A stretch of DNA of 64,000 nucleotides from Pigmentiphaga aceris. GTDB lineage: Bacteria; Pseudomonadota; Gammaproteobacteria; Burkholderiales; Burkholderiaceae_B. The stretch spans positions 4,526,001 through 4,590,000 of the forward strand of contig NZ_CP043046.1 in the NCBI RefSeq assembly GCF_008119665.1. Reading direction: 5' to 3'. The position numbers were made by a program, and so were the translations under genes. Under the pieces are notes generated by a model, which was not told the DNA's origin, did no database searches, and worked only from the letters and a program-made list of their open reading frames with translations. Numbering within the stretch: position 1 is the stretch's first letter; each line of letters opens with the position of its first letter. Positions 24,639 through 46,498 of this stretch are shown in pieces.

Positions 24639-24926
24639 CTACGACATGACGTGGGCCGGCAAGCACCCCGCAAGCACTGCCTCAAGTTCGCCAACATAGG
24701 CCAACAGCACATTGTGCTGCGTCATCAGCGCAAGCGCGGCGTCGGCGTTTCGCAGCGCAAGGATGTCGGCAAGCGTATCGACAGTCGGCCGTAGCGGCAT
24801 GGCTGCGATGCACGGCACGGGCACAGGGATCTTCACCTCTACTGTGCGAACAACCGCTTCTGGCGGCGTGGGCACGGCCGTACATCCCACGCTACAGACC
24901 AGCACGAGCAGCATCAAAGGTCGCAT
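24639..24926 (-). CDS. Rz1-like outer-membrane spanin lipoprotein
   Basis: A 95-residue lipoprotein: signal with lipobox LVCSVGC (Cys at residue 15), then the Pro-rich TPPEAVVRTVEVKIPVPVPC typical of Rz1/LysC o-spanins. Its start lies inside the Rz gene (35-base overlap, different frame), the classic embedded Rz/Rz1 arrangement. Together the pair fuses inner and outer membranes in the last step of lysis. It is longer than most Rz1 proteins, with a helical extension after residue 45. The ATG at 24926 is fixed by the lipobox. Confidence 0.8.
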   Translation of the reverse strand: MRPLMLLVLVCSVGCTAVPTPPEAVVRTVEVKIPVPVPCIAAMPLRPTVDTLADILALRNADAALALMTQHNVLLAYVGELEAVLAGCLPAHVMS

Positions 24927-25272
24927 CGCAAGTCTCCGGGCGGGTGGTCTGGATAATGGTGTGCAGCACGCGATTGCGTTCCAGCAATTCTCGTGTCGCA
25001 CGCTGCGCCACCGACAAGGCATCGGCAGCTTTTTGCTGGCGCAAGTGCGCCTCGGCCTGCCATTGTTCAAGCGCGTGGTTCTGCGCGTCGATGCTGGATT
25101 GCAAGGTCGCCACATTGCCCTGAAGCGTCACGCGATCGACGTTTACGACAGCAAGCTCGCGCAGGGCATCGTCACGCTGCTGGCGCGCTTCATTGCGCTG
25201 TCCGGCAAGCCACACGCACAAGGCCAACATCAGCAGGCTCACCACCAGAATGAGCTTGGACAAGAGCGTCAC
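24892..25272 (-). CDS. Rz-like inner-membrane spanin
   Basis: A 126-residue protein with one N-terminal transmembrane anchor (SKLILVVSLLMLALCVWLAG) and a periplasmic coiled coil (about 28-105), the i-spanin layout. The start is GTG at 25272, which overlaps the stop of the preceding 50-residue lipoprotein gene by 4 bases and has a G-rich ribosome binding site. It partners the Rz1-like lipoprotein whose gene begins inside its 3' end. Confidence 0.82.
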   Translation of the reverse strand: MTLLSKLILVVSLLMLALCVWLAGQRNEARQQRDDALRELAVVNVDRVTLQGNVATLQSSIDAQNHALEQWQAEAHLRQQKAADALSVAQRATRELLERNRVLHTIIQTTRPETCDATFDAARAGL

Positions 25273-25421
25273 TCCCCTGCCCCCGCACAACGCGCATACA
25301 GCGTGGCCAGTATCTCGGCATACGCAACGGGATCATCACCCGCACCGAGTTCCGGCAAGGGCGGACACGGCACATTCGCCGCGCACCCCGCCAACAGAAA
25401 AGATAAAAAAGCGGCCCTCAT
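25269..25421 (-). CDS. Small phage lipoprotein next to Rz
   Basis: A 50-residue protein with a short signal and lipobox LLAGC (Cys at residue 13), followed by NVPCPPLPELG and a short helix. It overlaps its upstream neighbour by 4 bases (ATGA) and the Rz start by 4 bases. The upstream neighbour is itself a membrane-anchored coiled-coil protein, so the two resemble a second i-spanin/o-spanin pair. It is too short for most gene callers, but lipobox, overlaps and context support it. Confidence 0.65.
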   Translation of the reverse strand: MRAAFLSFLLAGCAANVPCPPLPELGAGDDPVAYAEILATLYARCAGAGE

Positions 25422-25894
25422 GGTTGCCCCTCCGCAATCGCACGATTGGTCCGCTCGATTGCCGCATTGAGCGCCTCGCGCGCCGACTCCGGCACATTCG
25501 GCCGTGACGACACCGCCGCCGCCGTCGCCCCCGCCACCTGTGCCGCAGCCGCGGCCTGGCGCGACGCACGCACCGAGGTCTTGGCCGCCGACTCCGAGGT
25601 TCGCGCAGCCGTATTCGCAGACGCCGTCAGTTCCTCCAGCCGCACCGACATCCACGCCAATTGATCCTCCTTGCTATTGAGCAAGGCATCGGTCGTCGCT
25701 TGCAGACGACCGATCTCCGCCTGATGGTCCGCACGCTGCAACGCGAGCACATCATCCGCTCTCAACGCAGCCGAATACCCGGCCAGCCCGCCACCGCCAG
25801 CGATCAACACCAACAGCAAAAAGCCCTCGACCACATGCGCAACGCGACGAAACCGATCGCCATGCCCATGCAGCCAATCAAGAATGTTGGGCAT
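25418..25894 (-). CDS. Phage membrane-anchored coiled-coil protein (spanin- or holin-like)
   Basis: A 158-residue protein with one transmembrane helix near the N-terminus (about 22-42, VEGFLLLVLIAGGGGLAGY) and a long Ala-rich coiled coil (about 45-150). The start at 25894 overlaps the previous gene by 17 bases. The topology equals that of an i-spanin, and a lipoprotein gene overlaps its 3' end. A holin or lysis-control role is the main alternative. I do not recognise a named family. Confidence 0.6.
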   Translation of the reverse strand: MPNILDWLHGHGDRFRRVAHVVEGFLLLVLIAGGGGLAGYSAALRADDVLALQRADHQAEIGRLQATTDALLNSKEDQLAWMSVRLEELTASANTAARTSESAAKTSVRASRQAAAAAQVAGATAAAVSSRPNVPESAREALNAAIERTNRAIAEGQP

Positions 25895-26285
25895 GCTTGA
25901 GCACATCCATAAGTTGAGCGATCTGCGCCTCCAGCGCACGAACGCGGTCCTGCAGCAAACGCACCTGGTCGGTCAGCGTCTCGACCCGAACCTGCTGCGC
26001 CCCCTGCTCCTTCACCGCCTCATTGCGTTCCTTGAACGCATCATCGGCCCGTTGGTTCGCCGTCTTCAGCGCATCCCTGAGATCCTTGATCGTGTCATCC
26101 TTATCATCGAGCAGCTTGTAAAGCTGATCGAAAGAACCGACCGCCCCGGCCGCTTCCGCGTCCGCCACACGGTCGTTACGCCAAACCTTACGAAATGCCC
26201 AGACGGCGCTGGCGATAGCAGTGGCAATCCCACCCAACACGCCCCCCGCCGCACCAAGCGCCTGCCAGTCATCCGGTGTTTGCAT
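25878..26285 (-). CDS. Phage membrane protein with coiled coil, holin candidate
   Basis: A 135-residue protein with a single Gly/Ala-rich membrane segment (about 9-31, LGAAGGVLGGIATAIASAVWAF) then a basic RKVWRN stop and a strong coiled coil (about 50-130). It starts directly after the endolysin stop with no gap, where a holin is expected, and the endolysin has no signal of its own, so some membrane protein here must release it. Single-pass holins with a C-terminal domain are known (T4 t type), but no motif proves this role. Confidence 0.55.
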   Translation of the reverse strand: MQTPDDWQALGAAGGVLGGIATAIASAVWAFRKVWRNDRVADAEAAGAVGSFDQLYKLLDDKDDTIKDLRDALKTANQRADDAFKERNEAVKEQGAQQVRVETLTDQVRLLQDRVRALEAQIAQLMDVLKHAQHS

Positions 26286-26771
26286 CTACATCTCCATGGT
26301 TCCTCCGGCACGCAGGTAAAAGCCCTGCAAAGTGGCAATGCTGTGCTCATACTGGCCATATCCGGCGCCAGGAAGACTGGCCCAGATATTCCGGCACTTG
26401 CTGATTGCCAAAGTGAAACGACCCGCGAGGATGTCGTCGACCGCCCGCCGCTCCTTGATCTGCTGGAGAGCGATGCGGTCCTGGTTGATGGGGGAAAAGT
26501 CTTTCAGGTTCAACTGCTTGCTGTAGGCGTCCCAATACCTGGCCAAGAGTTGGTAGCGACCTGCTGCGGTGGACTTGATGCCCAGACGCGGCAGGTCGAC
26601 CAATACTCGGGGGTGGGATGCGTAGCTGGTGAAGCGAGTGCGGCCAACGATCTGGTCGTAGCCGTCATCGCGGGTTGTGGGGGAGTTGGAGGTGCCTTCG
26701 GAGAAGGCGAGTGTGTCGAGGAAGGGGAGGAGGTTGGGGCCGCCTGCTTCAACGGACGTGACGCGCGGCAT
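26286..26771 (-). CDS. Lambda R-type endolysin (lytic transglycosylase, GH104)
   Basis: A 161-residue cytoplasmic murein transglycosylase. The catalytic Glu lies in LAFSEGTSN (about residue 25), followed by RDDGYDQIVGRTRFTSYASHPR, STAAGRYQLL, YWDAYSKQLNLKDFSP, QDRIALQQIKER and NIWASLPGAGYGQ, which track the lambda R protein block by block. No signal or SAR anchor is present, so it needs a holin. It lies downstream of the fibre genes, separated by a strong terminator at 26785-26809, and starts the lysis cassette. Confidence 0.92.
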   Translation of the reverse strand: MPRVTSVEAGGPNLLPFLDTLAFSEGTSNSPTTRDDGYDQIVGRTRFTSYASHPRVLVDLPRLGIKSTAAGRYQLLARYWDAYSKQLNLKDFSPINQDRIALQQIKERRAVDDILAGRFTLAISKCRNIWASLPGAGYGQYEHSIATLQGFYLRAGGTMEM

Positions 26772-26978: not shown

Positions 26979-27353
26979 TCACGTGGGTAACTCCAGCGCA
27001 GGAAGGATTGCGATCAGTGCGGCTTCGGTCGGCTCCAGGGCACGACCAGCCTGTACCTCGCCCAGATACCAGTAGCACTTGGCCCAAACCAGACTACGCC
27101 ACTTGCGAAACGCCTGGCCCTCGGCCTGAAACAGTGGCACGGCCGGCTCGTCGGCGTAGGTGATGGCGGTCTTGATGTCGTCGTATCGGCGGACTTGCGC
27201 AGCGGCATCAAGATGCCCCTGAACGAAATTGGTAAGGGCCTTCACGCGGTTGTCGAACGTAGGGGCCACTGCGGCCTGGGCAGCGCGGTGTGCGACATCT
27301 TCTTCGGGTGCCATGTCCAGCAACACCCCATCGATTATGTGCTTAAGAGTCAT
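26979..27353 (-). CDS. Phage protein following the tail fibre, probable fibre partner/chaperone
   Basis: A 124-residue acidic protein that overlaps the fibre stop by 4 bases (ATGA). The C-terminal half (EGQAFRKWRSLVWAKCYWYL) is the most distinctive part and resembles small proteins that follow fibre genes in many tailed phages. By position it may help fold or attach the fibre; no catalytic motif is visible. Confidence 0.6.
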   Translation of the reverse strand: MTLKHIIDGVLLDMAPEEDVAHRAAQAAVAPTFDNRVKALTNFVQGHLDAAAQVRRYDDIKTAITYADEPAVPLFQAEGQAFRKWRSLVWAKCYWYLGEVQAGRALEPTEAALIAILPALELPT

Positions 27354-30300
27354 TTGCGATATCCATAGGTGACGACGCGGGAAAGATTGCCAAGATTGCC
27401 CGAGGACATTTTTAGGGTGAGCCCTCGAATATCTGCCAAGGCCAGCGCCGCTATGCCTGCCGCGGAGTAGGGGCCGGGAGTCGCCCCCGCACTGTTGTTC
27501 ACAATACCCTGCGCCGTGAATGCGGCCTGCCCACCAGCATTCAATGTGACCGCGATACGGCCGCTGATCCAGCGTGTCCCGTCCGTTGTAGTGACGCCAG
27601 GAGAGATTTGAAACATCGAGGTATTTACGGTGGAGTTGTCCAGCCGGCCACCCTGATAACTTTCTCTGGCGAAACTGTAGATGGAGGTTGTTACGTCACC
27701 CGAGCTATTCCTGAACGTCATACACGGAGTCGCGCTCGCGCTTGATCCGTACAGCCCGTCGAAGTGCACCTCGAGGCGCGTCAACTCCGGGTCGTCAAAG
27801 CCGGTGGTAAAAGCCACAGACGCCACATTGCCGATGTTGGAGACGTCTCCTAGCTTGATTACTGCGGCCAGACCGAGGACCTTGATGTTCGTGCCGGTCG
27901 CATAAAAACGGACTTTTTCGCCAGGATATAGACGAAGCGTTGTCGCGCTCCCCGATTGAGTCAGAAAGGGTTTTCCGGTCGGCGCGGCGAATATCGCCGC
28001 ACCTGTACCGGATACGTCGATCTGTACGTCGCACCACCACCCATTCGGGTGAGCTTCTGAGGAACCCATAGCACTCATCGCACCAGGGGCGAACACAAGC
28101 GTCGCGCCGTGGTCGCTGCCCAGAACAGCCGCTGCGGGAGTCACGCGTGAGGTTAGCGGCTCCCAAAGTGTCCAGTTGCCGGTGGTGCGGCTGCGGGTCC
28201 ACCCCATTCCTGTGTTGGAGTTATAGACCTCTTGCAAAATGTCGCTGCCGCGAAGCGACACTCGGATAAAAAGCCCCGCAGATGAAACCGGAGCATTTGC
28301 CGCTGCAACGCTGTTCGAGTACACACCCGGGTTCGTCGCAGAGTTGAGATCTGTGACGTAGGGCGTCTGCGCCGTCACTTGCGATTGACTCTGGCCCTGC
28401 CAAGCATTCCATGTTCCGGCGCTATCCGGGTAAGTGGGATAACCAGTCCGAATCCAAAGGCCGCCCGCCATCGATGACACTTGCTGAGCAACGATATCGC
28501 CAATCGCAGGACTCCCGCTGTACTCGCGGACGACGTCAATAAGGTAAAAGCCAGAACCCCTGCTCTCCGGAGCGTCCACGGCGGCCGTTTGTCCCGAATA
28601 GGTACCCGCCGTTACGACCGAACCAAAGGTGAAGCCAGACGCCAGAGGTGTGCGCCCGCCCCCGCCAGAGGGCTTCGCGTTCACTTCGTTGAGCGCCTTG
28701 ACGATATCGGTCTTGTCGGTCGTTGTGAGAGTTGTCAGATTGCCAATGGCCTTCAGCGCAAAGTCGTCTTGGAGAAAGACGCCCGCGCCGTCACACCACA
28801 CCAGACGACGACCCTGCGCTGGGATAACGATGGATCCAGCGCTGGCGCTTTTGACAGCGACGCTAAATCCGCCCGTGGTTGCGTTAAAAATCGACCAATT
28901 CCCCTGGGCTGCGGGCAAGGTTACAACGACGCTGGCCGTGAGAGCACCGGTGAACGTAAGGCTGGAGCACTCGGTCTGCGCCTGAGTGAGCGTCACGTCG
29001 CCCGTCAGGGCCACCACCCCTTGATTTTTGGTGAGGCGGCGCACGTACTGCGTGTTTGCGATACGAAAGCCAACGTCGCCAGGATCGGCGGTCTGTACCG
29101 CTACATTGCCGACGTTACGCATATCGAGGAGCGCCCCGATCATCGCCACATTTCCGCCGCCATTCGACCCGTTCCCGCCGCTGGCAATCATGCGGAAATC
29201 GTAGTCGACGGTGCTAGCCCCTGAGTGCCAATCGATGTACGGGGTGGTGGCCAGACCGCGGGTTGCGCCCAGCTCGATATTCGCGGCCCCGTTGGTACGT
29301 GGGTTAAGGACTAGCATTCCGCTGTCGAGGTTCAGCGCTGCCGCGATCGCAACGCTTCCTGTGGCGCGATCGATGTACAGAGCCTGGCCAAGATATACGC
29401 CGGTATCCGAAAAGCGGGTGATGGCGAGGTTGCTGCCCGAGTTCGCGCCCGCCTCGGGTGTGGCCGTCATACCGACACGCCAGCGCGAGCTGTTACCCGT
29501 CGTCAGCGCTACCAACCTCTCTGCGCCTGCCGCGCCATTCACAATAAGCGCGCCGTTAGTCTTGACCGAGTCCGCGGTGACGCTGCCGCCCTCTCCCATG
29601 TCGTCGTAGCTGCCGGTAAAAGCGACGGGTGCCAGAGTTTCGCTCAAGGCCTCGACCTCAGTAGCAGCGGTACCCGCTGGGTCTGCGCCAACGTTGTCAG
29701 GACCGAGCGGCACATCACCATTTTCGCCAGGCGCGACCCCAGCGACGGTTTTTACTTGACCAGCAGCGGATAGTGCCTCTTGCAGGCCGGGGATATCGTC
29801 GATGCCAAGCGAAACATTGCCCTCGACGTCCAGAACGTTGTTCACGCTTTTAACCGTACCCGTGCCTTGGCCGTCTGCGCCCGGCGCACCGCGAACGTTG
29901 ATCGCCATGGCTGGATCGGACACCACCCCAGTTTCTGCCAGGTAGCCAGTTGCAGGAGGCGTGCCGCGCCCCCCGGCCCACGAGGTAATACGCAGGACGC
30001 GTCGATTGCCGTCGATGGCCAACGCCACGGTCGGCGTCCAGCCATTACCGTATGCCTCGACGCTTGCCAGAATCGTTGCGGCAGACTGCGCATTTACCTC
30101 GGCTCTGTTGGCCGCGACAAGCGCCTCCGAAGCCCCTTGAATAGCCTCGTCTTTAGCCGTCAACACCACAGCCCGGTCACCCGCGACAACCTGCGTTGAC
30201 TCTCTGACTTCTTCCGCATTCTCTGCCGTAGCGACACGGTCGGCGGCAACGATAGCGGCATTCACTGCTGTTTCATTGGCTTTCCCCGTAGCGACATCTG

Positions 30301-30997
30301 CTGCCGTTGCTGCATCCACTTTAGACGCCGCCGCTGCGATGCGATCGGCTGCCGTGGCCGCAGCATCCAGAGAGGATGATTCGCTGGACGCGCTCGCCTC
30401 TTGCGCCTTTGTCGCGGCGACGCTTGCCGCTGTCGCGGCATCGACCGCGGAGGCCGCAGCTGCATCTTTGGCCGTGGTAGCAGCAAGGCGGTCTGCCTGC
30501 GTGGCTGCTGCGCTAGCCTGGGCCTTGGAAACCTCCAAGCCGATGCTGCTGAGCGCAGACGATAGCTCGGTATTCACGGCCTGGACGCCAGCTGAGATTT
30601 GACCCGCCAAGTCTGCAGCGCCATCGTCGATCTGCTCGGATAGTGCCGCAGTTCCATTAGCCACGATCTGGGCGACAGCCACGCGGTCTGCCGCTGTCGA
30701 GCCGGCTGCAGCCTGCGCGAGAGTCCTGGCCTCAGACGCCTCGGCTGCAGTGTCTTCAACCGCTTGGCGGGTAAGCTCGACCTGCACGGCTTTTTCGGTT
30801 GCATTGATACCGGCTGCTACCGCAGTTGCGCGCGCCTGCTCCGCATCGTTGCGATAAACGAGTGTTGCATCCCGAGCATCTTCTGCTTGGCGGACCGCAT
30901 CCACTGCACCGCTGATTGCACTCTGCGCAGCTTCGTCCAGCTCATTAAGCTTCCGTATAGCATCAGGCCCGCGCATACCTGTAGAAAAACGTCCCAT
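27350..30997 (-). CDS. Tail fibre protein
   Basis: A 1215-residue fibre. Residues about 1-290 form an extremely Ala-rich coiled coil (AADRVAVAQIV-, AATQADRLAATTA-like heptads), followed by a Gly-rich link (NVRGAPGADGQGTG), beta-structured shaft segments, and two knob-like repeats (about 775-930; FYLIDVVREY..., then DLNSATNPGVYSN...RSRTTGNWTLWEPL, cited in parts) that resemble the knob domains of R-type pyocin and phage fibres. The C-terminal 200 residues probably bind the receptor. The ATG at 30997 shares one base with the previous stop (TAATG) and has AGGGG upstream. It would set the host or target range of the particle. Confidence 0.85.
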   Translation of the reverse strand: MGRFSTGMRGPDAIRKLNELDEAAQSAISGAVDAVRQAEDARDATLVYRNDAEQARATAVAAGINATEKAVQVELTRQAVEDTAAEASEARTLAQAAAGSTAADRVAVAQIVANGTAALSEQIDDGAADLAGQISAGVQAVNTELSSALSSIGLEVSKAQASAAATQADRLAATTAKDAAAASAVDAATAASVAATKAQEASASSESSSLDAAATAADRIAAAASKVDAATAADVATGKANETAVNAAIVAADRVATAENAEEVRESTQVVAGDRAVVLTAKDEAIQGASEALVAANRAEVNAQSAATILASVEAYGNGWTPTVALAIDGNRRVLRITSWAGGRGTPPATGYLAETGVVSDPAMAINVRGAPGADGQGTGTVKSVNNVLDVEGNVSLGIDDIPGLQEALSAAGQVKTVAGVAPGENGDVPLGPDNVGADPAGTAATEVEALSETLAPVAFTGSYDDMGEGGSVTADSVKTNGALIVNGAAGAERLVALTTGNSSRWRVGMTATPEAGANSGSNLAITRFSDTGVYLGQALYIDRATGSVAIAAALNLDSGMLVLNPRTNGAANIELGATRGLATTPYIDWHSGASTVDYDFRMIASGGNGSNGGGNVAMIGALLDMRNVGNVAVQTADPGDVGFRIANTQYVRRLTKNQGVVALTGDVTLTQAQTECSSLTFTGALTASVVVTLPAAQGNWSIFNATTGGFSVAVKSASAGSIVIPAQGRRLVWCDGAGVFLQDDFALKAIGNLTTLTTTDKTDIVKALNEVNAKPSGGGGRTPLASGFTFGSVVTAGTYSGQTAAVDAPESRGSGFYLIDVVREYSGSPAIGDIVAQQVSSMAGGLWIRTGYPTYPDSAGTWNAWQGQSQSQVTAQTPYVTDLNSATNPGVYSNSVAAANAPVSSAGLFIRVSLRGSDILQEVYNSNTGMGWTRSRTTGNWTLWEPLTSRVTPAAAVLGSDHGATLVFAPGAMSAMGSSEAHPNGWWCDVQIDVSGTGAAIFAAPTGKPFLTQSGSATTLRLYPGEKVRFYATGTNIKVLGLAAVIKLGDVSNIGNVASVAFTTGFDDPELTRLEVHFDGLYGSSASATPCMTFRNSSGDVTTSIYSFARESYQGGRLDNSTVNTSMFQISPGVTTTDGTRWISGRIAVTLNAGGQAAFTAQGIVNNSAGATPGPYSAAGIAALALADIRGLTLKMSSGNLGNLSRVVTYGYRK

Positions 30998-31821
30998 TAC
31001 CACCCCTGAATAGAAATTTTCTTGGAGTAGGAAAGCGTGCGTGCGGCGATAACGCCGCCGGCAGCGAGCCCTCCGTAGATCATGTGGTCTTGTTCGAGCA
31101 GCGCATCGGTGTCCCCGGGAAATACGCTGACGAATACCTTGCGACCACCGCTCGTGCCACGCATGATCTGCATGACACGTGCGCGGTCTCGCGCATCAAG
31201 CCATTCCAGATCGAGCTCCATTTCGTCGTACTGCGGACCACGATCGGTACGAAGGTCACCAGAATCCGCACGATCGGACGTACTCATGTCGGCGATGTTG
31301 ACTGCCAAACCGTATGAGGCGTTATGCTCGGGTTCCCAGTAAGCCCCTGCCACAATGCGTGCGCAGTCGATATAACCAGCGGGGTTTTCAGGATCAGACA
31401 GTTCAATCTCCACACGACGAGCAGCTACATGTTCAAACCACACTGCCGTCTTGCTTGCGCCGCCATATGCAAATGCGTTTGCATTAAGCGGTTCGGTCCA
31501 GTCCCAAAGTTCCAGCAGCGCGCCCGGGCATGCATAAACGAGTCCGGTGTCAACCAGCAATTCGCCAGCTGTATCTGCGTCGTAAAGTCGAGCGCGGATA
31601 GTTGCCATGGGCGACAAGTTGGTCGCAGGCAATGAAATAGCACCAACACTTTCAAGGTTGGGCCACATCAACGTATATGTCACGGCACTGCCAGATGCCC
31701 TGTGCACAGAACCTTTGATATCAGTCTGCATATGGACTGCGATGGATGCCCCCGCAGTAGAACTTGCGGTAATTACGGCGCGGTCGGCAGCGTTATCATG
31801 AACCAGACGTAGATTAGGCAT
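30997..31821 (-). CDS. Phage tail tip/baseplate protein of unknown family
   Basis: A 274-residue beta-rich protein (start MPNLRLVHDNAAD at 31821, overlapping the previous stop by 8 bases). Segments such as WFEHVAARRVEIELSDPEN, YDEMELDLEWLDARDRARVMQIM and FVSVFPGDTDALLEQDHMIYG suggest a structural scaffold rather than an enzyme. It lies between tip proteins and the fibre, so it may be the fibre-attachment protein. I do not recognise the family. Confidence 0.65.
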   Translation of the reverse strand: MPNLRLVHDNAADRAVITASSTAGASIAVHMQTDIKGSVHRASGSAVTYTLMWPNLESVGAISLPATNLSPMATIRARLYDADTAGELLVDTGLVYACPGALLELWDWTEPLNANAFAYGGASKTAVWFEHVAARRVEIELSDPENPAGYIDCARIVAGAYWEPEHNASYGLAVNIADMSTSDRADSGDLRTDRGPQYDEMELDLEWLDARDRARVMQIMRGTSGGRKVFVSVFPGDTDALLEQDHMIYGGLAAGGVIAARTLSYSKKISIQGW

Positions 31822-32083
31822 CAAAAGATTCCTGTTCAGGAATAATCGGCACCAGTGAAACACCCAGGTAAAGGAGTTGTTCGTTAAATGCCGATAGCAC
31901 GTCCGGTGTGAGGTCTGCGGCAATGGCAGGCATTTGCTGCTGAATCGGATAGCCAATTTGCTGCCCGGCCGCATCGGTCATTAACTGCACGGATGTCATC
32001 AACACATTAAAGGGTTGACCGCCGCCCTGCAGGCTATTGGGAATAGATATCTGAAGCCCAGCGAGTATGGTTTGGCGTTGCAT
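31814..32083 (-). CDS. Small phage tail-region protein
   Basis: An 89-residue protein with no signal or membrane segment, with Gln-rich centre (PIQQQMPAIAADLTPDVLSAFNEQ). It sits 11 bases after the previous gene and overlaps the next by 8. It is part of the tail-tip operon; no function can be assigned. Confidence 0.6.
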   Translation of the reverse strand: MQRQTILAGLQISIPNSLQGGGQPFNVLMTSVQLMTDAAGQQIGYPIQQQMPAIAADLTPDVLSAFNEQLLYLGVSLVPIIPEQESFDA

Positions 32084-32094
32084 AGTTATGGTCC

Positions 32095-32871
32095 TTAATA
32101 GCTAATAGTCATGGTGAAAGATTTGTCGACACCGTCGATATTGATCGAGCCACGAAGGTTATCCCCCCGAAGGACAATATCTTTCCCAAACGCGCCAGCG
32201 GGTCGAGTGTTAAGCGAGAAAGTGCCGTTGCAGGCGAGATCCCAAGCGTCGACAGAAGTCCGAGCAATCAGGCGGGCGGCTTCGATATAGCCAGACGCGG
32301 CAATATTGGTGGCATTCACAACATCGCCAGTTAAGCGGACTCCGTTGAAGGTCCCGCCATTAAAAGTCGTCCCAGTGAAAGTGCCGCCTTCGAAAGAAGT
32401 GCCGCTGAAGTGCCCACCTGAAAACGTCTTACCGATAAAAGAGCCGCTAACAATCTGATTCGCGGCGACCGTGCTTGCAAAAGCGAGGCTGCCAAGGTTG
32501 GTGACCTTCGTAGAAGCGTCCAGGCGCCCGGAAACCTGTGTCGCCAAGTCGATAGAACTCTGCAACGCGAGGTCTCCTAGGCCCTGAACACGCGCTGCTG
32601 AAAGCCTCTGACCGGCCGAAAATACAATGGTCCCCGCCTCGTCTCTGATCGTCAGGCCGCGGCTGTCGATCTGATTAGCAATGACGGTCTGGGCCTGAAA
32701 GTTCCCTTGATGGACGAGCGTGTTGCCGCCCGCCCCCTTGACTGCTTCAGGCAGCGAACCGGCACCGATCTGACCTGGTGGCACAACGACGGTGGGTGGC
32801 AACGTGACCGGCTCGGTACGCACGGTTGCCGCCTGCAGAATCTTGTCGCGAGCATTGATAATCGTGCTCAT
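32095..32871 (-). CDS. Tail tip protein with five-residue repeats
   Basis: A 258-residue protein. The middle holds a short run of five-residue repeats (GHFSGTSFEGGTFTGTTFNG, then GTFNGVRL, about residues 158-185), predicted to form a right-handed beta-helix. The preceding segment (GLTIRDEAGTIVFSAGQRLS) resembles the C-terminal parts of lambda J-type central tail proteins. The start overlaps the previous stop by 4 bases (ATGA). It is probably part of the central spike or hub below the tube. Confidence 0.65.
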   Translation of the reverse strand: MSTIINARDKILQAATVRTEPVTLPPTVVVPPGQIGAGSLPEAVKGAGGNTLVHQGNFQAQTVIANQIDSRGLTIRDEAGTIVFSAGQRLSAARVQGLGDLALQSSIDLATQVSGRLDASTKVTNLGSLAFASTVAANQIVSGSFIGKTFSGGHFSGTSFEGGTFTGTTFNGGTFNGVRLTGDVVNATNIAASGYIEAARLIARTSVDAWDLACNGTFSLNTRPAGAFGKDIVLRGDNLRGSINIDGVDKSFTMTISY

Positions 32872-40258: not shown

Positions 40259-40567
40259 TTAGTCGCTCGCCCCCATCCCCATTGCAGACCCGATCTTCCC
40301 TCCCGAGTCATCCGCCAAACTCACCAACCACGCGCCATCCACCTCGCGCAGCGCCTTCAACTCCCACTCCGCAGGCCTGATCCCCCGCTGACGAAACCAC
40401 ACATCGATTTCCCCGTGCATCAACGGATTCGGTGCCATCCCACACTGCCGTCCGGCGGCAATCTCGCAGAACCAGCGCCATAGATACGCCGTCTCTTCAG
40501 GCGGCACAGGGGCGCTGGCCAATTCATCGGCCAGCACGCCGGTCTGCGCATGGATTTCCAACAGCAC
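40259..40567 (-). CDS. Tail assembly chaperone, T part of a probable G-T frameshift pair
   Basis: The frame reads as 102 residues from a GTG at 40567, but it is open without stops for at least 160 bases farther upstream, through the end of the G gene, in the -1 frame relative to G. Read through, it begins FYAGLTDALVAFAEAEFAF and continues into PPEETAYLWRWFCEIAAGRQ and HGEIDVWFRQRGIRPAEWE, which match the helical C-terminal part of lambda gpGT-like chaperones. Translation by -1 slippage near 40650-40660 would make a G-T fusion. No ideal heptanucleotide slippery site is visible; GCTTTTA is the best candidate. Confidence 0.7.
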   Translation of the reverse strand: MLLEIHAQTGVLADELASAPVPPEETAYLWRWFCEIAAGRQCGMAPNPLMHGEIDVWFRQRGIRPAEWELKALREVDGAWLVSLADDSGGKIGSAMGMGASD

Positions 40568-40647: not shown

Positions 40648-41055
40648 TCAGCCCTGCGTAAAAGCGGCGCTGTCGGCCGAGGCTTCCAGGATCTGCGTGA
40701 CGAAGCTGGGGTTGCGCGTCAGCAGCTTGCGCAGGTTGGCTTCACCGAAGGGTTCTTTCGGGCCGCGCCAGCCGATGGTGGCGATGACCGCTTTGTCGAT
40801 GGTCAGGGTGACGTCATCTTCGATCGGACGCACGTCGGCGTTTTTGCCTTTGCGGGCATTGGCCAGTTCCTGGCGACGGCGGGTGTTGATGGTGCGGAAG
40901 GTGTGCGAGGACACTTTCTCGGAGTGCTCGCCCAGCACGCGCAGGTGGATGCCGGTGGGCAGGTTGGTTGCGGTAAGCAATTCGATCTCGACGCCTTGTT
41001 CGTTGGCGCCGCGTTCGTCGAAGTTGTCGATGCTGATTTCTTGTGCCTGGGTCAT
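40648..41055 (-). CDS. Tail assembly chaperone, G protein
   Basis: A 135-residue acidic protein between the tail tube and the tape measure, where the tape-measure chaperone G lies in siphophages. The start has AGGA 10 bases upstream. The C-terminal half (GWRGPKEPFGEANLRKLLTRN) is typical of this group. The T frame overlaps its end. Confidence 0.8.
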   Translation of the reverse strand: MTQAQEISIDNFDERGANEQGVEIELLTATNLPTGIHLRVLGEHSEKVSSHTFRTINTRRRQELANARKGKNADVRPIEDDVTLTIDKAVIATIGWRGPKEPFGEANLRKLLTRNPSFVTQILEASADSAAFTQG

Positions 41056-41123
41056 GTTTTTTTGTCCTGTGGGGTCACACCGCAATGCGGCGATAAAGGA
41101 AAAATGTCGGGCTTGAGGAAAAC

Positions 41124-41381
41124 TCAAACGCCGTAAATCGGTGCCAGGTAGTCGTACAGCGCGCGCTGTACCGAGTCGGGCAAGTAGGTGCCCTTGATCG
41201 ATACCTGCGCGTTGCCAAAGGACAAATCCTGGGCAGTGAGGGACAGCGTCAAGCTGACGGTGGATACGCTGTCGGCAACGATCGCGGTGTCTACCGCTGA
41301 CACCGAGGCTGACAGGTCCACGCCGTCTACACGAACCCGTCCGCGGCCGTTGTCGCCGACCGCGATTTCTACGCGCGCCAT
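41124..41381 (-). CDS. Small tail-region protein of unknown function
   Basis: An 85-residue beta-rich protein (VEIAVGDNGRGRVRVDGVDL; YLPDSVQRALYDYLAPIYG at the end). It lies between tail tube and G, where lambda has no gene. It is bracketed by a terminator hairpin on the upstream side. It may decorate or cap the tube; no family is recognised. Confidence 0.65.
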   Translation of the reverse strand: MARVEIAVGDNGRGRVRVDGVDLSASVSAVDTAIVADSVSTVSLTLSLTAQDLSFGNAQVSIKGTYLPDSVQRALYDYLAPIYGV

Positions 41382-41397
41382 ACGCCTGCTCCTTGAA

Positions 41398-41421
41398 GAA
41401 AAAAACCCGGCCGAAGCCGGG
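41398..41421 (-). terminator. Terminator after the tail tube gene
   Basis: Perfect 6-bp stem CCCGGC/GCCGGG with CGAA loop (41406-41421), followed on the minus strand by seven or more T. It would lower expression of downstream tail genes relative to the tube protein, which is needed in many copies. Confidence 0.8.
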
Positions 41422-41441
41422 CTGAAAGACGCTCTGGGCGA

Positions 41442-41903
41442 TCAGCCGCCGTTGGCGGGTGCCGCAACTTCCACGGTGTCGCCAGTCAGGCGGAAGTTGA
41501 AGGTGGCGGACACGACGCCGGACACCTGCGCGTCCCACGAGCGTTGCGAGACCAGGGCCAGGGCCGAGAAGGTCGAGCCGTCGCTGAAGGTGACGCGGAT
41601 CAGGCGGGTCTGCTTGTCTTGTGCAGCGGCTTTGATGACGACTTGCGCTTCGTCAGCCTGGACCCAGTGGCCGGACACGGTCATGGTGCCGGCATCGCGC
41701 AGACCCAGACGGAATTCCTTGGCGCTGGAGGCCAGGACAGTTGCGTCGATTTCGTCGGCGCTGCCGCCTTGGTATTGCACCGATTTGGCGGTGATGTCGA
41801 GCGATGCGAAACCGGCGGGTGCTACCACGGCATTGACGTCGGTGACGGCGGCGGTCGAGATATCGAGCTTGGTGCCTTGAACGAGCAGAACGGGATTGGC
41901 CAT
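41442..41903 (-). CDS. Major tail tube protein
   Basis: A 153-residue protein (MANPVLLVQGTKLDISTAAV at the start). Beta-rich sequence with a typical tube-protein middle (AKEFRLGLRDAGTMTVSGHW, then FSDGSTFSALALVSQ) and a C-terminal FNFRLTGDTVEV strand. Size, place upstream of the chaperones and tape measure, and the terminator behind it (giving higher dosage) fit the tube subunit of a flexible, non-contractile tail. No sheath gene is present, so the tail is not contractile. The ATG at 41903 is preferred over an upstream start inside terminators. Confidence 0.78.
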   Translation of the reverse strand: MANPVLLVQGTKLDISTAAVTDVNAVVAPAGFASLDITAKSVQYQGGSADEIDATVLASSAKEFRLGLRDAGTMTVSGHWVQADEAQVVIKAAAQDKQTRLIRVTFSDGSTFSALALVSQRSWDAQVSGVVSATFNFRLTGDTVEVAAPANGG

Positions 41904-41921
41904 GTATTGACTCCAGAAACG

Positions 41922-41944
41922 AAAAAAACCCACTCGATGGCGGG
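41922..41944 (-). terminator. Terminator directly before the tail tube gene
   Basis: A 5-bp stem (CCCGC with GTGGG on the minus strand, one G-U pair) and a T7 tract. It is the third terminator-like element between the late promoter and the tube gene. Confidence 0.55.
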
Positions 41945-41974
41945 ATTGGGGTGAAACCTGATCGGGTCGGGACG

Positions 41975-42009
41975 AAAAAAAACCCCGACAGCTTTTCGAT
42001 GTCAGGGTT
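41975..42009 (-). terminator. Strong terminator upstream of the tail module
   Basis: An 8-bp stem (ACCCTGAC with GTCGGGGT on the minus strand, one U-G pair) followed by eight T. It stands between the candidate late promoter and the tail tube gene. Confidence 0.85.
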
Positions 42010-42059
42010 GTTCTCTTACCTAGGCGCTGCGACAAACATCGCAAAAAAACGCCGAACGC

Positions 42060-42084
42060 AAAAAAGCCCGCTCATCGGCGGGCT
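42060..42084 (-). terminator. Strong terminator upstream of the tail module
   Basis: A perfect 7-bp stem AGCCCGC/GCGGGCT (42065-42071 with 42078-42084) and a T6 tract on the minus strand. It is the first terminator downstream of the late promoter. Confidence 0.88.
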
Positions 42085-42105
42085 TCATTTCTTTCGGGCG
42101 AATTA

Positions 42106-42126
42106 ATGCAGCCCATCGGGCTGCAT
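42106..42126. promoter_or_regulatory. Perfect 9-bp inverted repeat near the late promoter
   Basis: ATGCAGCCC and GGGCTGCAT flank a 3-base centre. It lies about 40 bases downstream of the -10 element of the candidate late promoter. It has no T-tract, so it may be an operator or an RNA hairpin for antitermination. Confidence 0.5.
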
Positions 42127-42151
42127 ATACTCACACTCGAAAGTGCGGTGA

Positions 42152-42832
42152 TCAAATTGTGGATCTATTATTGCGCACTTTTGCGCGGTAGTCAAGAATA
42201 TTTCCAATCGATGTGACTGCATGGAACATCAACGGATCAAATTGGCGATATGGAATCGCAGCTGCGCGGCACAATGCCGAGGGATGCACGCCATAGCAGT
42301 AGTAGCCAGCCAACATCACTTTGTCTTTCATCGGCAGCGGCTCACCCCGCCATGCGGCTTCTACCAAGGCAGCATCCGATACTTCCGCACCGGACGGTGG
42401 CTGTCGCCATTCTTGGCGCGCCTTGCCTGCCAGCACTGCCAGGTGATGGCAGACCTTGCCGGTCATGCTGATATCGGGGCGACGGCGCTCGCGCATGATC
42501 TCGCCCCAGCGCTCCAGGCGTTCATGCAGCGCAAGCGGCACGCGCAGCCGGAAGTCGACTTCGCGGTGTGGTCGCGGCCCGTTTTGCTTGATGGTCACGA
42601 GCTTGCCGAAGGGGTCGATCACGTTGACCTCTCCGGCACGCGCTGACGCGGCTTCTTTGTGTTCCAACACGGCGGCTGGATCGCGGTATTCCCAACGTTC
42701 ACGAGCGGACATGGTCACTCCCTTGCTGATGATCACGCGGCGCGGCGGCGCAATCTGGTTCGATTCGGCGAGCAAGCTCAAGCCCGCATGATTGACGGCG
42801 GTTACCGCCTGGGTCTGTGTCGAGATATTCAT
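42152..42832 (-). CDS. Unknown phage protein between replication and tail modules
   Basis: A 226-residue, strongly basic protein with an AGGGGAG ribosome binding site. The middle (FRLRVPLALHERLERWGEIMRERRR) is helical and Arg-rich, and a hydrophobic helix-rich part follows (KDKVMLAGYYCYGVHPSALCRAAAIPY). No membrane segment and no family I recognise. Because it is the last gene before the promoter and terminators of the tail module, a late-gene activator or antiterminator role is an attractive guess, without direct evidence. Its 3' end overlaps the late promoter. Confidence 0.65.
   Translation of the reverse strand: MNISTQTQAVTAVNHAGLSLLAESNQIAPPRRVIISKGVTMSARERWEYRDPAAVLEHKEAASARAGEVNVIDPFGKLVTIKQNGPRPHREVDFRLRVPLALHERLERWGEIMRERRRPDISMTGKVCHHLAVLAGKARQEWRQPPSGAEVSDAALVEAAWRGEPLPMKDKVMLAGYYCYGVHPSALCRAAAIPYRQFDPLMFHAVTSIGNILDYRAKVRNNRSTI
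42167..42195 (-). promoter_or_regulatory. Candidate late promoter with operator in its spacer
   Basis: On the minus strand TTGACT is followed after exactly 17 bases by AATAAT, close to sigma-70 consensus. The spacer contains GCGCA-N4-TGCGC, the same arms as the two dyads beside the repressor gene. It faces the tail genes and lies within the 3' end of the 226-residue gene. Confidence 0.68.
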
Positions 42833-42906: not shown

Positions 42907-44274
42907 TCATTCGAAGCCTCTGGTCTTGCGCGGCGCTGGCATCACGTCTGGCGTGGCTGGCAACTCGGTTGAAGCAAGGCTGCTGAAGCGGGTTTGCGCA
43001 CCGACATATGCCAGTCGTACTCGCCCGGGTTCTCCTTGCCGAATCAAGCCCACGTTGATTTCGGCAATGCCGCGCGCCAAGGTGTCTGCGTGGTAGACCT
43101 CATCTCGATAAAGGAACAAGGCCGCGTCGCAATCTTGTTCGATTGCGCCTGAATCACGCAGGTCTGATGGCATCGGTCGTTTGTCGGCACGGCTTTCCAG
43201 CTGGCGATTGAGCTGCGACAGCAGCACGATCGCAATGTCGAGCTCTTTGGCCAGCGCCTTCAGACCGCGTGTGATGCCTTCGATCTGCGCATTGCGGTTG
43301 TCGCCCTCGCCGCTCATCAATTGCAGATAGTCGATGACAAGCACATCCAGGCCATGACGGCGCTTGGTCGAGCGCGCCTTGGTGCGCACGTCGAACAAGG
43401 ACAGGCCACCCTGATCGTCGATCCACAGGCTCAAGGTGCGCAGGCGTTGCAAGCCCGTTGATATGGCCAACCAGATGGCATTGCCACTGTCATCTGCAGG
43501 GATCGTGTCTGCCTGCAGCAGGTAGCGCAGATCGACCCGCCCGAGGCTGGCAATCTGGCGTTGCAGAAGTTGTCGTTTCGGCATTTCCATCGACAGGAAA
43601 AGCGCCTGCCCATGCGTGGCAACATAATTGACCACGCTCATCGCAAACGCGGTTTTCCCCATCTTCGGGCGCGCGGCGATCACGATCAGTTCGCCACGCC
43701 GCATGCCGCCTGACAGCCTGCGATCCAGGTCCGCGAAACCCGTTGAAATGGCTTTGGGCAGCACGCCGGCAGCCTGTCGTTTCATCTCATCGAGAAAGCT
43801 CTGCAGGCCATCGGCCACATGCTCGGGTTCGATCCGGCCGCGCGAGGCAGACAGCTTTTCCAGCTCGCCCTGGCCATAATCGATCAAGCTGGAAATCGGT
43901 TCGCCAATACTGGTGTGCGCACGATCGGACAACTCGGACGCCAGGGCCAAGACCCCACGCCGCTGCGCCCGGTCACGCACCATGTCTGCGTAGTGGCCAA
44001 TGTTGGCCACGCCCGGCGTGTTGCGTGACAAGGCGTTCAGATAGATCAGCAGTTCGGCTGACTGCGCGCCCAGGCGATCGAACACCGTCAGCACGTCGGC
44101 CGCCGCGCCTTCACCGATCAGTCGCAAGACTTCTCGATAGGCCTGCCGGTTGCGCGGGCTGAAGAAGTGTTCCGGCCGAAGCTCACCTACATGATCCAAG
44201 GCCTCGTTGTTCAGCAGCAGCCCGCCCAGTACGGACTGCTCGGCAATGTCGCTGTACAGCTCGGCGCGAGTCAT
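42907..44274 (-). CDS. Phage DnaB-like replicative helicase
   Basis: A 455-residue helicase. The N-terminal DnaB domain starts SDIAEQSVLGGLLLNNEAL; the RecA-like motor carries Walker A (AARPKMGKTA, about 208), Walker B (VLVIDYLQLM), H3 and H4 motifs (IVLLSQLNRQLESR and PSDLRDSGAIEQDCD) and the arginine finger region near YRDEVY. It is a full-length hexameric helicase, not a fragment. The start overlaps the O-like gene by 4 bases (ATGA), so the two form an initiator plus helicase pair as in lambda-like or P22-like phages. Confidence 0.92.
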   Translation of the reverse strand: MTRAELYSDIAEQSVLGGLLLNNEALDHVGELRPEHFFSPRNRQAYREVLRLIGEGAAADVLTVFDRLGAQSAELLIYLNALSRNTPGVANIGHYADMVRDRAQRRGVLALASELSDRAHTSIGEPISSLIDYGQGELEKLSASRGRIEPEHVADGLQSFLDEMKRQAAGVLPKAISTGFADLDRRLSGGMRRGELIVIAARPKMGKTAFAMSVVNYVATHGQALFLSMEMPKRQLLQRQIASLGRVDLRYLLQADTIPADDSGNAIWLAISTGLQRLRTLSLWIDDQGGLSLFDVRTKARSTKRRHGLDVLVIDYLQLMSGEGDNRNAQIEGITRGLKALAKELDIAIVLLSQLNRQLESRADKRPMPSDLRDSGAIEQDCDAALFLYRDEVYHADTLARGIAEINVGLIRQGEPGRVRLAYVGAQTRFSSLASTELPATPDVMPAPRKTRGFE

Positions 44275-45371
44275 GCGCGACGCTCGTGCTGACCGCCGGC
44301 CACGTTGGAGAAGCCCGCCGGGCTGATCATCCAGTCGAAGCCGACATTGGGGGGAAGCGCGCAGTGTTCCCGCACCCAAGCGAAGTAGCGTAGCCAGAAC
44401 TTGGGCTTGTCCGAATATCGAATGAAGGCAGCAATGTTGCCCGCGCGCCGGGTGGAATAGACGCTGACGGAAACCGTACCCAGTTGCTCGCCAAGTGCCG
44501 CGTTGTAGGCTTCGATCACCTCGACGGCAGCCGCGTCGTATTCGCACTGCACTTCGTCTTCCCAGCACGCGCTGTTCAACCAGGTCGATGCATGTTTCAC
44601 ATACTTCACATCGCTCCACAAACCAGCTGCGGTGCTGCGCCGAATCGATTCAAGCATCAAATCCAGCAACGCTTCGTCAGGCATCAGCCGCGCGAAAGCG
44701 TCACGGGCATCTTGCTTGTCGACCTTGCGAGGATAGGCCTGCCAGAAACGATCGAAGCGGTCTTTCAAGGTGTCGCTCATCATCAGATGCGAACGCGCCG
44801 CACGACGAGGTGACACCTGAGTGACAGCGACCGGCCGAGGATAAAGATTTGTCTGTTGAAGTTGGTTTTTGGGCTTGTCTTTTGAGGGTCCCGAGACGGG
44901 ACGCTGCACGTCCTGATCCGGGACCAATACCAGTCCCGAAACCGGACTGGAAGCCGGAGATGCAATCGGCTCCGCGTCGTCCCGATCCGGGACAGGCAGC
45001 AATGCAACATCGGACTGCCGCACTGGCTTCACCCAGGTTGTGTGCCGTTTGTTGATCCCGACGATCAACCCATACCGGCCAGGCTCACAGACCACGACAT
45101 TCATGCGCTCCAACTGCTTGAGTGTCGTCGTCACGTGGTTGCGCGCAATGCCGCACAAGGCCCCAAGTTGCGACGCGGTCACGTCGTCGACTTTCTTGCC
45201 ATAGCCATACGTCTTGCGCACGACTGCCAGCAGCACGTGCAACTGGCGTCCGGAAAAACCGAAGCGCAGCACGGCGTCGTACAGCTCGTTGGCCAGGCGC
45301 AAAAATCCGTCTTCAACCTGCGGCCCTTTGCCACCAAGCTCAACCAACTTCGATGTACTCACCAAAGGCAT
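44271..45371 (-). CDS. Phage replication protein O-like
   Basis: A 366-residue protein. Residues about 15-105 (VEDGFLRLANELYDAVLRFG, SGRQLHVLLAVVRKTYGYGK, LCGIARNHVTTTLKQLERMN) match the winged-helix origin-binding domain of lambda O-type proteins. A Pro/Ser linker (about 120-190) leads to a C-terminal helicase-recruiting domain (DRFDRFWQAYPRKVDKQDAR). A GTG at 45413 with a better ribosome binding site (GGGAG, 7-base spacing) would add 14 residues. The stop overlaps the helicase start. It probably binds iterons inside its own gene, which were not searched for. Confidence 0.85.
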   Translation of the reverse strand: MPLVSTSKLVELGGKGPQVEDGFLRLANELYDAVLRFGFSGRQLHVLLAVVRKTYGYGKKVDDVTASQLGALCGIARNHVTTTLKQLERMNVVVCEPGRYGLIVGINKRHTTWVKPVRQSDVALLPVPDRDDAEPIASPASSPVSGLVLVPDQDVQRPVSGPSKDKPKNQLQQTNLYPRPVAVTQVSPRRAARSHLMMSDTLKDRFDRFWQAYPRKVDKQDARDAFARLMPDEALLDLMLESIRRSTAAGLWSDVKYVKHASTWLNSACWEDEVQCEYDAAAVEVIEAYNAALGEQLGTVSVSVYSTRRAGNIAAFIRYSDKPKFWLRYFAWVREHCALPPNVGFDWMISPAGFSNVAGGQHERRA

Positions 45372-45424
45372 TCCCCCATATCGGACTGCTTGTTGTTCCC
45401 ACAGTGTTCTCACTGCCCTACTCC

Positions 45425-45565
45425 CTACGCGTTTTTGCGAATCACAGGGCCGCGCGTCATGCCCCACCATGAGCGCGCCAGTTCGTCGAGCAACTCAGCT
45501 TGTTTGCGAACGAACGCCCCCGTCGCGCTCGGAAAACGGCTCCGGCGACGTGTCGTCTGATTCAT
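45425..45565 (-). CDS. Small basic protein, first gene of the early operon
   Basis: A 46-residue protein beginning NQTTRRRSRFPSATGAFVRK and ending SWWGMTRGPVIRKNA. It is shorter than usual cut-offs but lies exactly between the early promoter and the O-like gene, with 11 bases to the alternative GTG start of the latter. The Arg-rich start recalls lambda N-type antiterminators, although the rest does not align. A dyad AAGGGC/GCCCTT lies just upstream (45576-45591). The ribosome binding site is weak. Confidence 0.5.
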   Translation of the reverse strand: MNQTTRRRSRFPSATGAFVRKQAELLDELARSWWGMTRGPVIRKNA

Positions 45566-45591: not shown

Positions 45592-45719
45592 GATCATTTG
45601 AAATCGTTATCGCGATCAACTACGATACGTGGCATCGCGATGCGATCAGCTTGCAATTGCTCGACTTCCGAAGAATTTAGTAGGAGGATTGGCAAAACAG
45701 CGCAAGACTTGATGTATCA

Positions 45720-45748
45720 ATTTAAGCGCATTTGCGCTCAATCAGCAA
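45720..45748 (-). promoter_or_regulatory. Early promoter (PR-like) facing the replication genes
   Basis: On the minus strand TTGCTG (45743-45748) and TTAAAT (45720-45725) are separated by 17 bases. The spacer contains operator site 1. This is the same design as at the late promoter. Confidence 0.55.
45726..45737. promoter_or_regulatory. Repressor operator site 1
   Basis: GCGCATTTGCGC, a near-perfect 12-bp dyad, lies in the spacer of the early promoter. It is 23 bases (about two helical turns) from site 2 and shares its arms. Confidence 0.68.
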
Positions 45749-45760
45749 GCGCAAATGCGC
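45749..45760. promoter_or_regulatory. Repressor operator site 2
   Basis: GCGCAAATGCGC lies directly upstream of the early -35 element and 24 bases before the repressor start codon. Repressors of the CI type bind such paired dyads cooperatively. Confidence 0.68.
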
Positions 45761-45784
45761 GTGCACAACCATTACTTTTGCGAT

Positions 45785-46498
45785 ATGAGCACTCTCAGCG
45801 AACGAATGAAAGAAGCCCGGGTACAAGCCGGGCTGTCGCAGGCGGAGCTGGCCAAGCAGCTCGGCGCAGGACAATCGACGATCGCCAGCATTGAGAACGG
45901 CCGTAACCAGAGTTCTGGCCGCCTGGTCGAGATAGCGCAATTGCTGCAGGTCAACCCAACCTGGCTGGCAAGTGGTCAGGGACCGCGCAAGGCTCAGGCG
46001 GCGATTGACAGTGTCGATGCCAGTGACCAGATCGTGGTGTGGGAAAAGCTGTCTGATCTGCCTCCGGACGAAAACCGCACGTGGATCGATCGCTACGATC
46101 TGCTGTGTTCAGCCGGCACCGGCATCATCCAGTGGGAAATCAGGCAAAAACAGGCACTGCCTTTCACCATCGATTTCTTCAAGGCCATTGGCTCCAAGCC
46201 AGAGCATTGCCGGCTGGCAAGCGCACGCGGCAACAGCATGGAACCGTTTCTGTTCGATCGCGACATGATCATGATCGACATCAGCAAAACTACGGTGCGC
46301 GACGGCAACGTCTATGCAGTGTGCTTCGAAGACGAGACCTTGGTGAAACAGCTGTTCAAGCAGGCGGGGGGAGCCTTGATGCTGCATTCCTACAATGCGA
46401 AATACCCGGATCGCATCGTTCCGGCATCGGAAGAGACCAGCTTCCAAGTGATCGGGCAGGTGATCTATCGATCCGGGTCGGGCTTGCCGGGAGTCTGA
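45785..46498 (+). CDS. CI/LexA-type self-cleaving repressor
   Basis: A 237-residue repressor. Residues about 5-60 are an HTH_3 domain (ARVQAGLSQAELAKQLGAGQ, then STIASIENGR). A linker ends at Ala110-Gly111 (CSAGTG), the expected RecA-stimulated cleavage site, nearly the same residue number as in lambda CI. The S24 peptidase domain has nucleophile Ser151 (RGNSMEP) and general base Lys188 (ETLVKQL). All parts needed for SOS induction look intact. The ATG at 45785 is preferred; the upstream GTG/ATG would overlap operator 2. The gene is divergent from the early operon, and a stem-loop (46535-46570) follows. Confidence 0.92.
   Translation: MSTLSERMKEARVQAGLSQAELAKQLGAGQSTIASIENGRNQSSGRLVEIAQLLQVNPTWLASGQGPRKAQAAIDSVDASDQIVVWEKLSDLPPDENRTWIDRYDLLCSAGTGIIQWEIRQKQALPFTIDFFKAIGSKPEHCRLASARGNSMEPFLFDRDMIMIDISKTTVRDGNVYAVCFEDETLVKQLFKQAGGALMLHSYNAKYPDRIVPASEETSFQVIGQVIYRSGSGLPGV

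Follow-up and report, generated by a model that had tools for sequence, protein, structure and literature searches.

Why would a bacterial weapon that packages no DNA need the replication genes of a phage? The question is raised by a block of phage genes at positions 24639-46498 of a 64,000-nucleotide stretch of the Pigmentiphaga aceris genome (RefSeq assembly GCF_008119665.1, contig NZ_CP043046.1, positions 4,526,001 to 4,590,000), referred to below as the window, from which all coordinates are counted. The block is probably a flexible, non-contractile (F-type) tailocin of siphophage descent that lost its head, packaging and integration genes and kept its early region. To our knowledge, few flexible tailocins are known. 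Read directly from the DNA are the gene content of the locus, the lack of recognisable head genes, a gene junction common to three records, low ratios of nonsynonymous to synonymous substitution (dN/dS), and the conservation of iterons and control DNA. A literature search that had most subscription journals outside its scope found no paper on this locus.

Gene content of the locus

The block lies between host-type flanks within a 6.17 Mb single-contig genome, with an FMN-dependent monooxygenase gene on the left (23182-24504) and a MarR/MATE pair on the right (46661-48524). The repressor gene alone is read rightward. All other genes of the block are read leftward, in the order O, DnaB, a gene for a 226-residue protein, tube, an 85-residue gene, two chaperones, tape measure, hub, three tip genes, a 1217-residue gene, a 124-residue gene and the lysis genes. 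The early and tail genes are given here with their best evidence, which includes identity to records of the IMG/VR database (L010, L070, L071 and L229) that are described below.

45755..46498, plus strand: CI-like repressor with helix-turn-helix (HTH) and Peptidase_S24 domains (phrog_4, E 1.5e-49; PF00717 and HTH_3)
44271..45470, minus strand: O-type replication initiator (PF04492, Phage_rep_O, E 1.1e-24)
42907..44274, minus strand: DnaB-like replicative helicase (PF03796, E 1.7e-77; longer frame used)
42152..42832, minus strand: 226-residue protein, proposed Q-like late antiterminator (position between DnaB and the late genes; L229 homologue between DnaB and terminase)
41442..41903, minus strand: major tail (tube) protein, 153 residues (phrog_158, E 1.6e-26; longer frame used)
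41124..41381, minus strand: 85-residue gene (94% identity to L010; weak connector-like match to phrog_9658, E 0.0035)
40648..41055, minus strand: G-like tail assembly chaperone (phrog_313, E 5e-8)
40259..40567, minus strand: T-like chaperone frame (phrog_3817)
34331..40078, minus strand: tape measure protein, 1915 residues (17 tape-measure PHROGs; frame from an upstream TTG)
32868..34334, minus strand: tail hub, 488 residues, T5-like
32095..32871, minus strand: tip protein, 258 residues (relatives in L010, L070 and L071)
31814..32083, minus strand: tip protein, 89 residues (54% to L070, 52% to L071)
30997..31821, minus strand: tip protein, 274 residues (phrog_8610, E 1.6e-30)
27350..31003, minus strand: 1217-residue protein in the fibre position (first part 53% to L070, 51% to L071)

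Families for head, packaging and integration functions gave no match at E <= 0.001 among the 18 block open reading frames (ORFs) searched, a set from which ORFs under about 80 residues mostly fall out. No integrase gene was recognised among them, and no sheath family was found among the ORFs tested. The match of the 85-residue gene is the only connector-like one in the block, and from it this gene is a candidate for the missing tail end-cap. The terminase families PF20454, PF03237 and PF03354 had no match in the whole genome; among 14 control genomes, each of the three was matched in 3 to 6. Tail and lysis genes without recognised head or packaging genes are the gene content of an F-type tailocin, and a tube with no sheath family predicts, on genes alone, a non-contractile tail. 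The integrase and the packaging or helper-capture genes of phage satellites, for which the classes compared were PICI, cf-PICI and P4-like elements (PICI, phage-inducible chromosomal island; cf, capsid-forming), were not found among the 18 ORFs.

The original prediction, made from the letters of the sequence, had described a tail and lysis block without head genes, carrying an SOS-type repressor, a replication pair, tube, G/G-T, a 1915-residue tape measure and a tip; ORFs and family searches bear out each of these, and the final stop is the sole stop in each of 16 translated gene frames, as its claim of intact tail and lysis frames implied. Its fibre gene stands as a 1217-residue frame in the fibre position, a name that rests on position, given that the protein has no family match.

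The headless junction in other records and selection on its genes

Besides the window's own record, scans of IMG/VR returned L010 (11,097 bases) and L028 (6,440 bases), whose names indicate two different metagenomes. The DnaB-226-tube junction is common to all three, a reason to reject a lone deletion in this strain. L010 aligns with the window in a single alignment of 5,053 columns at 84% identity, from O through DnaB, the 226-residue gene and the tube into the chaperones. Between L010 and L028, 4,328 nt align at 96% identity, and the alignment ends at the start of the tape measure. The 248-nt spacer between the 226-residue and tube genes is 89-90% identical (219 and 220 of 245 aligned bases in L010 and L028), and the -1 frame upstream of T, over the end of G, is open in all three records. 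Beyond the chaperones, L010 (5187-8942) and L028 (from 4541) diverge at the tape measure; the L010 tape-measure frame has ~1251 residues and that of the window 1915, so headless relatives may have tails of different length.

The dN/dS ratio was calculated between the window and its relatives by the Nei-Gojobori method. Against L010, it is 0.144 for O (355 of 399 codons), 0.093 for DnaB, 0.073 for the 226-residue gene, 0.066 for the tube, 0.131 for the 85-residue gene, 0.028 for G, 0.135 for T and 0.043 for the hub, with dS of 0.23-1.02 and no stops. Against L028, the early genes and those from tube to T give 0.03-0.13, with O covered over 115 codons. Values for the tape measure and the 1217-residue gene against L010 and L028 were excluded for patchy alignments and one stop symbol in the L010 tape-measure row, as were several saturated dS values against L070 and L071. 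The check for purifying selection proposed with the original prediction thus came out at 0.03-0.14 for these eight genes, and the choice it left between a recent lone deletion and a kept headless cluster goes to the latter, in that two independent records share the junction at low dN/dS. Selection appears to have kept the locus headless, as judged on three records of which two are fragments. The shared junction suggests that the head was lost before these lineages parted, so the replication genes, and the iterons within O, appear to have been under selection since then.

Replication genes, iterons and repressor

Candidate control sites lie in O and ahead of the repressor gene.

44888..44993: candidate origin in O, with four iterons GTCCNGNNNNNGGAC
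45724..45762: candidate operators ahead of the repressor gene, two palindromic GCGCATTTGCGC sites

The pattern GTCCNGN5GGAC, picked after inspecting the sequence, occurs in four copies inside O with starts 22, 23 and 46 bases apart. These account for 8 of the 9 strand-matches in the window, where 0.64 were expected and none of 100 shuffles reached 9. The O gene of L010 also carries four copies, 22-23 bases apart (0.13 expected; 0 of 200 shuffles). The lambda origin, too, has its iterons within the O gene. The GCGCATTTGCGC sites have 13 matches in the window at up to 3 mismatches, against 4.4 expected; 8 exact sites are listed genome-wide, just 2 of them at the repressor.

The 226-residue protein and proposed control of the late genes

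The DNA ahead of the tube gene holds the following features.

42167..42195, minus strand: sigma-70-like promoter (10 of 12), proposed late promoter, in the 3' end of the 226-residue gene
42106..42126, minus strand: strong hairpin ahead of the terminators (-21.2 kcal/mol for 42098-42140, z -4.64)
42063..42086, minus strand: terminator-like hairpin 1 (z -2.53; present in L010)
41981..42009, minus strand: terminator-like hairpin 2, followed by a T run (z -2.19; 91-94% kept; missed by the terminator scan)
41929..41944, minus strand: terminator-like hairpin 3, a weak fold (z -1.34)

The promoter-like site is in the same place in L010, and 27 of its 29 nt are conserved in each of L010 and L028; the strong hairpin and the three terminator-like hairpins are 91-96% kept in the relatives. 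In lambda, the arrangement of Q, PR' and tR' places a promoter and then terminators ahead of the late operon. The window, L010 and L028 share this layout: the 226-residue gene separates the replication genes from the late genes, and a promoter-like site precedes terminator-like hairpins. It is proposed from this layout and its conservation that the 226-residue protein works like lambda Q. The term Q-like is a claim on function and not on kinship, because the protein has no informative match.

Relatives of the protein are few. With its 252-residue frame as query, a search of 5.8 billion proteins, which requires shared short words, returned two matches, at 91% and 76%. Shorter proteins similar to its second half turned up in 12 of 267 further genomes from the family; five of these proteins have 139-185 residues and are 24-32% identical. 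A structure model reached a mean confidence (pLDDT) of 44 and was unusable. A promoter-like site stands at the 3' end in 8 of 14 loci with a homologue, some of the 8 being near-identical; in L225 and L229, which are alike here, it is a 10-of-12 promoter followed by a terminator-like site. As a separate observation, four similar short hairpins of the AAAAAACCCGC...GCGGG type lie between genes at 40092-42082, from the 226-residue gene to the tape measure.

Relatives that carry head genes

Twelve IMG/VR loci encode the tube family of the window. In the three with the closest tubes (the window's own record, L010 and L028; 92-100%), DnaB and the 226-residue gene lie upstream and there is no neck or terminator match. 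In the other nine (53-63%), a relative of the tail terminator lies at most 1.1 kb upstream in eight (within about 110 nt in five loci, at 0.65-1.1 kb in three), together with a neck protein in seven of those eight; L257, the one without a terminator match, has only 581 nt of upstream sequence available. The neck and terminator queries were taken from L117, which showed no counterpart of the 85-residue gene between its tube and chaperone genes. L258 and L260 appear almost identical to each other.

In the four records read with relatives of the hub, L070 and L071 (68-70%) and G030 and G059 (44-50%), genes for terminase and portal lie 11-16 kb upstream. In both L070 and L071 the terminase is of the GpA type and the portal of the lambda type. 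The family phrog_2, which we take to be the terminase large subunit, had no match in L070, L071, L010 or L028, a poor test because L070 and L071 carry GpA-type terminases. L070 and L071 share with the window the tape measure (51/54% in the best segment), the hub (70/68%), the tip genes and the start of the 1217-residue protein, and L071 its endolysin (82%), but they have no match to the tube, O, DnaB or 226-residue gene in the stretches compared. L229, a phage record in IMG/VR from an isolate genome, supplies the early part: DnaB (48%) is followed by a 226-residue homologue (35% over 132 residues) with the promoter-like 3' site, and then by terminase and portal genes where the window has tail genes. 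Given these layouts, the headless locus looks like an L229-like layout from which the genes from terminase through tail terminator were removed. The original prediction would have read head genes at this gap in relatives as a sign of a lone deletion; they were seen only in distant ones (tube 53-63%, hub 44-70%) and not in the closest loci.

In a scan for DnaB, the best 80 of 172 stretches were taken and 77 compared, with the window's own record, L010 and L028 left out. The tube was matched in none of these, the tape measure in one (L210) and the 226-residue protein in two (L225 and L229). In L210 (4008-13351), O-like and DnaB genes are followed ~2 kb downstream by a 1548-residue tape measure and then by an excisionase-like gene. 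It is without the tube and tip genes of the window, and was considered as another headless case and set aside as a rearranged prophage; it is either that or another route to head loss.

Comparison with known tailocins

The F-pyocins of Pseudomonas aeruginosa, set side by side with the locus by description, share with it a flexible headless tail and lysis genes. F-pyocins have a lambda-like M-L-K-I-J tip and are not known to carry replication genes.

Closest to the locus among known systems is rhizoviticin from Allorhizobium vitis, established as a flexible tailocin by microscopy and antagonism tests according to its 2024 report (PMC10811719). Its headless locus of 22.7 kb is described there as carrying a DnaA-HTH gene, a DnaB-like gene and a LexA-family repressor, and deletions in its region B indicated that 5 of 6 genes, the DnaB-like gene included, are needed for late-gene expression (PMC10811719). 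The authors regard the replication region as an early stage between prophage and tailocin, and the paper states that replication genes are not in other tailocin regions (PMC10811719). As far as that account goes, both systems have a headless flexible-tail locus of ~22 kb with lysis genes, a LexA-family or CI-type repressor, a DnaB-like helicase and an initiator-like gene, and in both the tail and early portions trace to relatives with head genes. Only rhizoviticin is described with the DnaA-HTH gene, a RuvC gene, tail proteins of the gene transfer agent type and, next to a tRNA gene, the remnant of an integrase. In the window there are instead O with iterons, the 226-residue Q-like gene with its promoter and terminator-like hairpins, and a T5-like hub, and no integrase or tRNA was found in it. 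Rhizoviticin is proven by microscopy of particles and by killing tests, and the locus is set against its published description. With replication genes and a LexA/CI-type repressor in a headless tail locus, the locus seems to follow the same logic as rhizoviticin with different parts. The original suggestion of an undescribed type is not supported in the strong sense, since rhizoviticin, as described, is already headless with a DnaB-like helicase, an initiator-like gene and a LexA-family repressor (PMC10811719).

Proposed mechanism and alternative explanations

The domains of the CI/S24 repressor predict SOS induction: DNA damage would lead to its cleavage through RecA, and the early operon of O, DnaB and the 226-residue gene would be transcribed. 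O would bind the four iterons in its own gene and load DnaB, such that the locus replicates in place. The 226-residue protein would then act at the proposed late promoter, inside the 3' end of its own gene, to let RNA polymerase pass the terminator-like hairpins, and read-through would reach the tube, tape-measure, hub, fibre and lysis genes. By analogy with known tailocins, headless tails would assemble, the lysis genes would open the cell, and the tails would kill relatives recognised by the 1217-residue protein.

An answer to the opening question can be offered tentatively, as a real possibility: the locus may be a self-amplifying tailocin, in which replication in place after SOS induction, from the iterons in O and with its own DnaB, gives the tail and lysis genes more copies before the Q-like switch acts, and replication is kept as a gene-dosage device. 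A somewhat more doubtful answer is that O and DnaB no longer replicate anything and are kept for their operon position before the late regulator, affecting its transcription. O, DnaB and the 226-residue gene are indeed packed in one direction, and in the published description 5 of the 6 genes deleted from region B of rhizoviticin, including the DnaB-like one, were needed for late expression (PMC10811719). Polarity alone, however, leaves the conserved protein sequences (dN/dS 0.09-0.14) and the iterons in O unexplained. If retention of O, DnaB and iterons dates from before the split of the window, L010 and L028, an early stage on the way to a tailocin is also a poor explanation here.

It is improbable that the locus is a prophage in decay whose head module went recently in a single deletion, with intact tail and lysis frames as leftovers. 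The replication genes and full early layout that remain would fit such a history, as would the lack of the hub in the 10 other congeneric species, but the same junction is present in L010 and L028 at dS 0.23-1.2 and dN/dS 0.03-0.14, and all 16 checked frames are open. Most improbable is a satellite or split phage that makes tails while its DNA rides in helper heads, or whose close relatives carry head genes elsewhere: the replication module and iterons are conserved and L010 and L028 stop short of the element's end, as this would allow, but no integrase or terminase was recognised in the block, the three terminase families are unmatched genome-wide, and host-type genes bound the block.

Several observations weigh against the tailocin interpretation and its Q-like switch. 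No tail-terminator gene was recognised in the block, and the 258-residue tip gene is less constrained than the others (dN/dS 0.25 against L010, 193 of 258 codons). L010 and L028 are fragments that end before their element does, and head genes elsewhere in it are possible. The tape measure is mosaic between records; modules recombine, as it does, a caution on shared history. Promoter-like sites in the window show no excess over shuffles (3 against 2.0 expected), terminator-like sites in L010 hardly any (17 against 12.0 expected, standard deviation 3.8), and 6 of the 14 loci with a 226-residue homologue are without the promoter-like 3' site. The 226-residue protein has no informative family or PDB match and no detectable relation to known Q proteins. 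The hub and the 226-residue gene are in none of the 10 other species of the genus, and the flanks are not syntenic in four congener stretches (G002, G003, G004 and G007).

Distribution

Because the hub and the 226-residue gene are missing from these 10 species, the patchy locus would either move between lineages or be often lost. A search for the same headless order in relatives, as the original prediction advised, was successful for the junction in L010 and L028 and unsuccessful for the hub in the genus. Tube proteins 94% and 87% identical have longest contigs of 186,238 and 78,000 bases, hub proteins 91% and 68% identical have longest contigs of the same sizes, and the two pairs probably sit on the same contigs. 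A single-sequence scan of genome contigs with the 488-residue hub returned no relative, and an alignment-based scan returned 38 loci at 41-56%, which entered only one tblastn comparison; 30 of the 38 are from Janthinobacterium, Massilia, Duganella or another member of the Oxalobacteraceae. Among relatives of the tube, three with a name belong to Bordetella, Alcaligenes and Variovorax. A tube match was found in 10 of 399 genomes including its own, the remaining ones at 24-36% identity.

Lysis genes and other features

The left end of the block holds the following genes.

26979..27353, minus strand: 124-residue protein (phrog_5844; 63% to L070, 72% to L071)
26286..26771, minus strand: endolysin (phrog_90, E 2.2e-53; 82% to L071)
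25878..26285, minus strand: holin-like protein (phrog_2658, 'hol-like', E 3.4e-12)
25418..25939, minus strand: lysis-set protein whose sequence, by eye, has a stretch like a membrane segment (65% to L071 over 124 residues; no family match at E 0.001)
24892..25290, minus strand: weak Rz-like spanin (phrog_89, E 0.011)
24639..24926, minus strand: Rz1-like lipoprotein (lipobox by eye; Rz-like match only at E 4.2)

The full lysis cassette of the original prediction is upheld strongly for the endolysin (E 2e-53), moderately for the holin-like protein (E 3e-12) and weakly for the spanins (best Rz-like E 0.011). A small lipoprotein-like frame at 25270-25421, seen by eye ahead of the Rz-like gene, brings the lipoprotein candidates in the lysis set to two. 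Searches of the window for tRNA genes and Rfam families found none, PADLOC had no match for 7 proteins, and no flanking pair of attachment repeats is conspicuous among 20 of 28 direct repeat families.

Significance

What is new here is an indication that selection continued to act on the replication module long after the head was lost. If it has been kept since before the three records parted, a working role for it, in gene dosage or in late-transcription control, is likely. Whether such genes are a leftover or a working part of a tailocin becomes a question that can be answered by copy-number measurement and gene deletion, and the DnaB-226-tube junction provides a sequence marker for finding further such loci.

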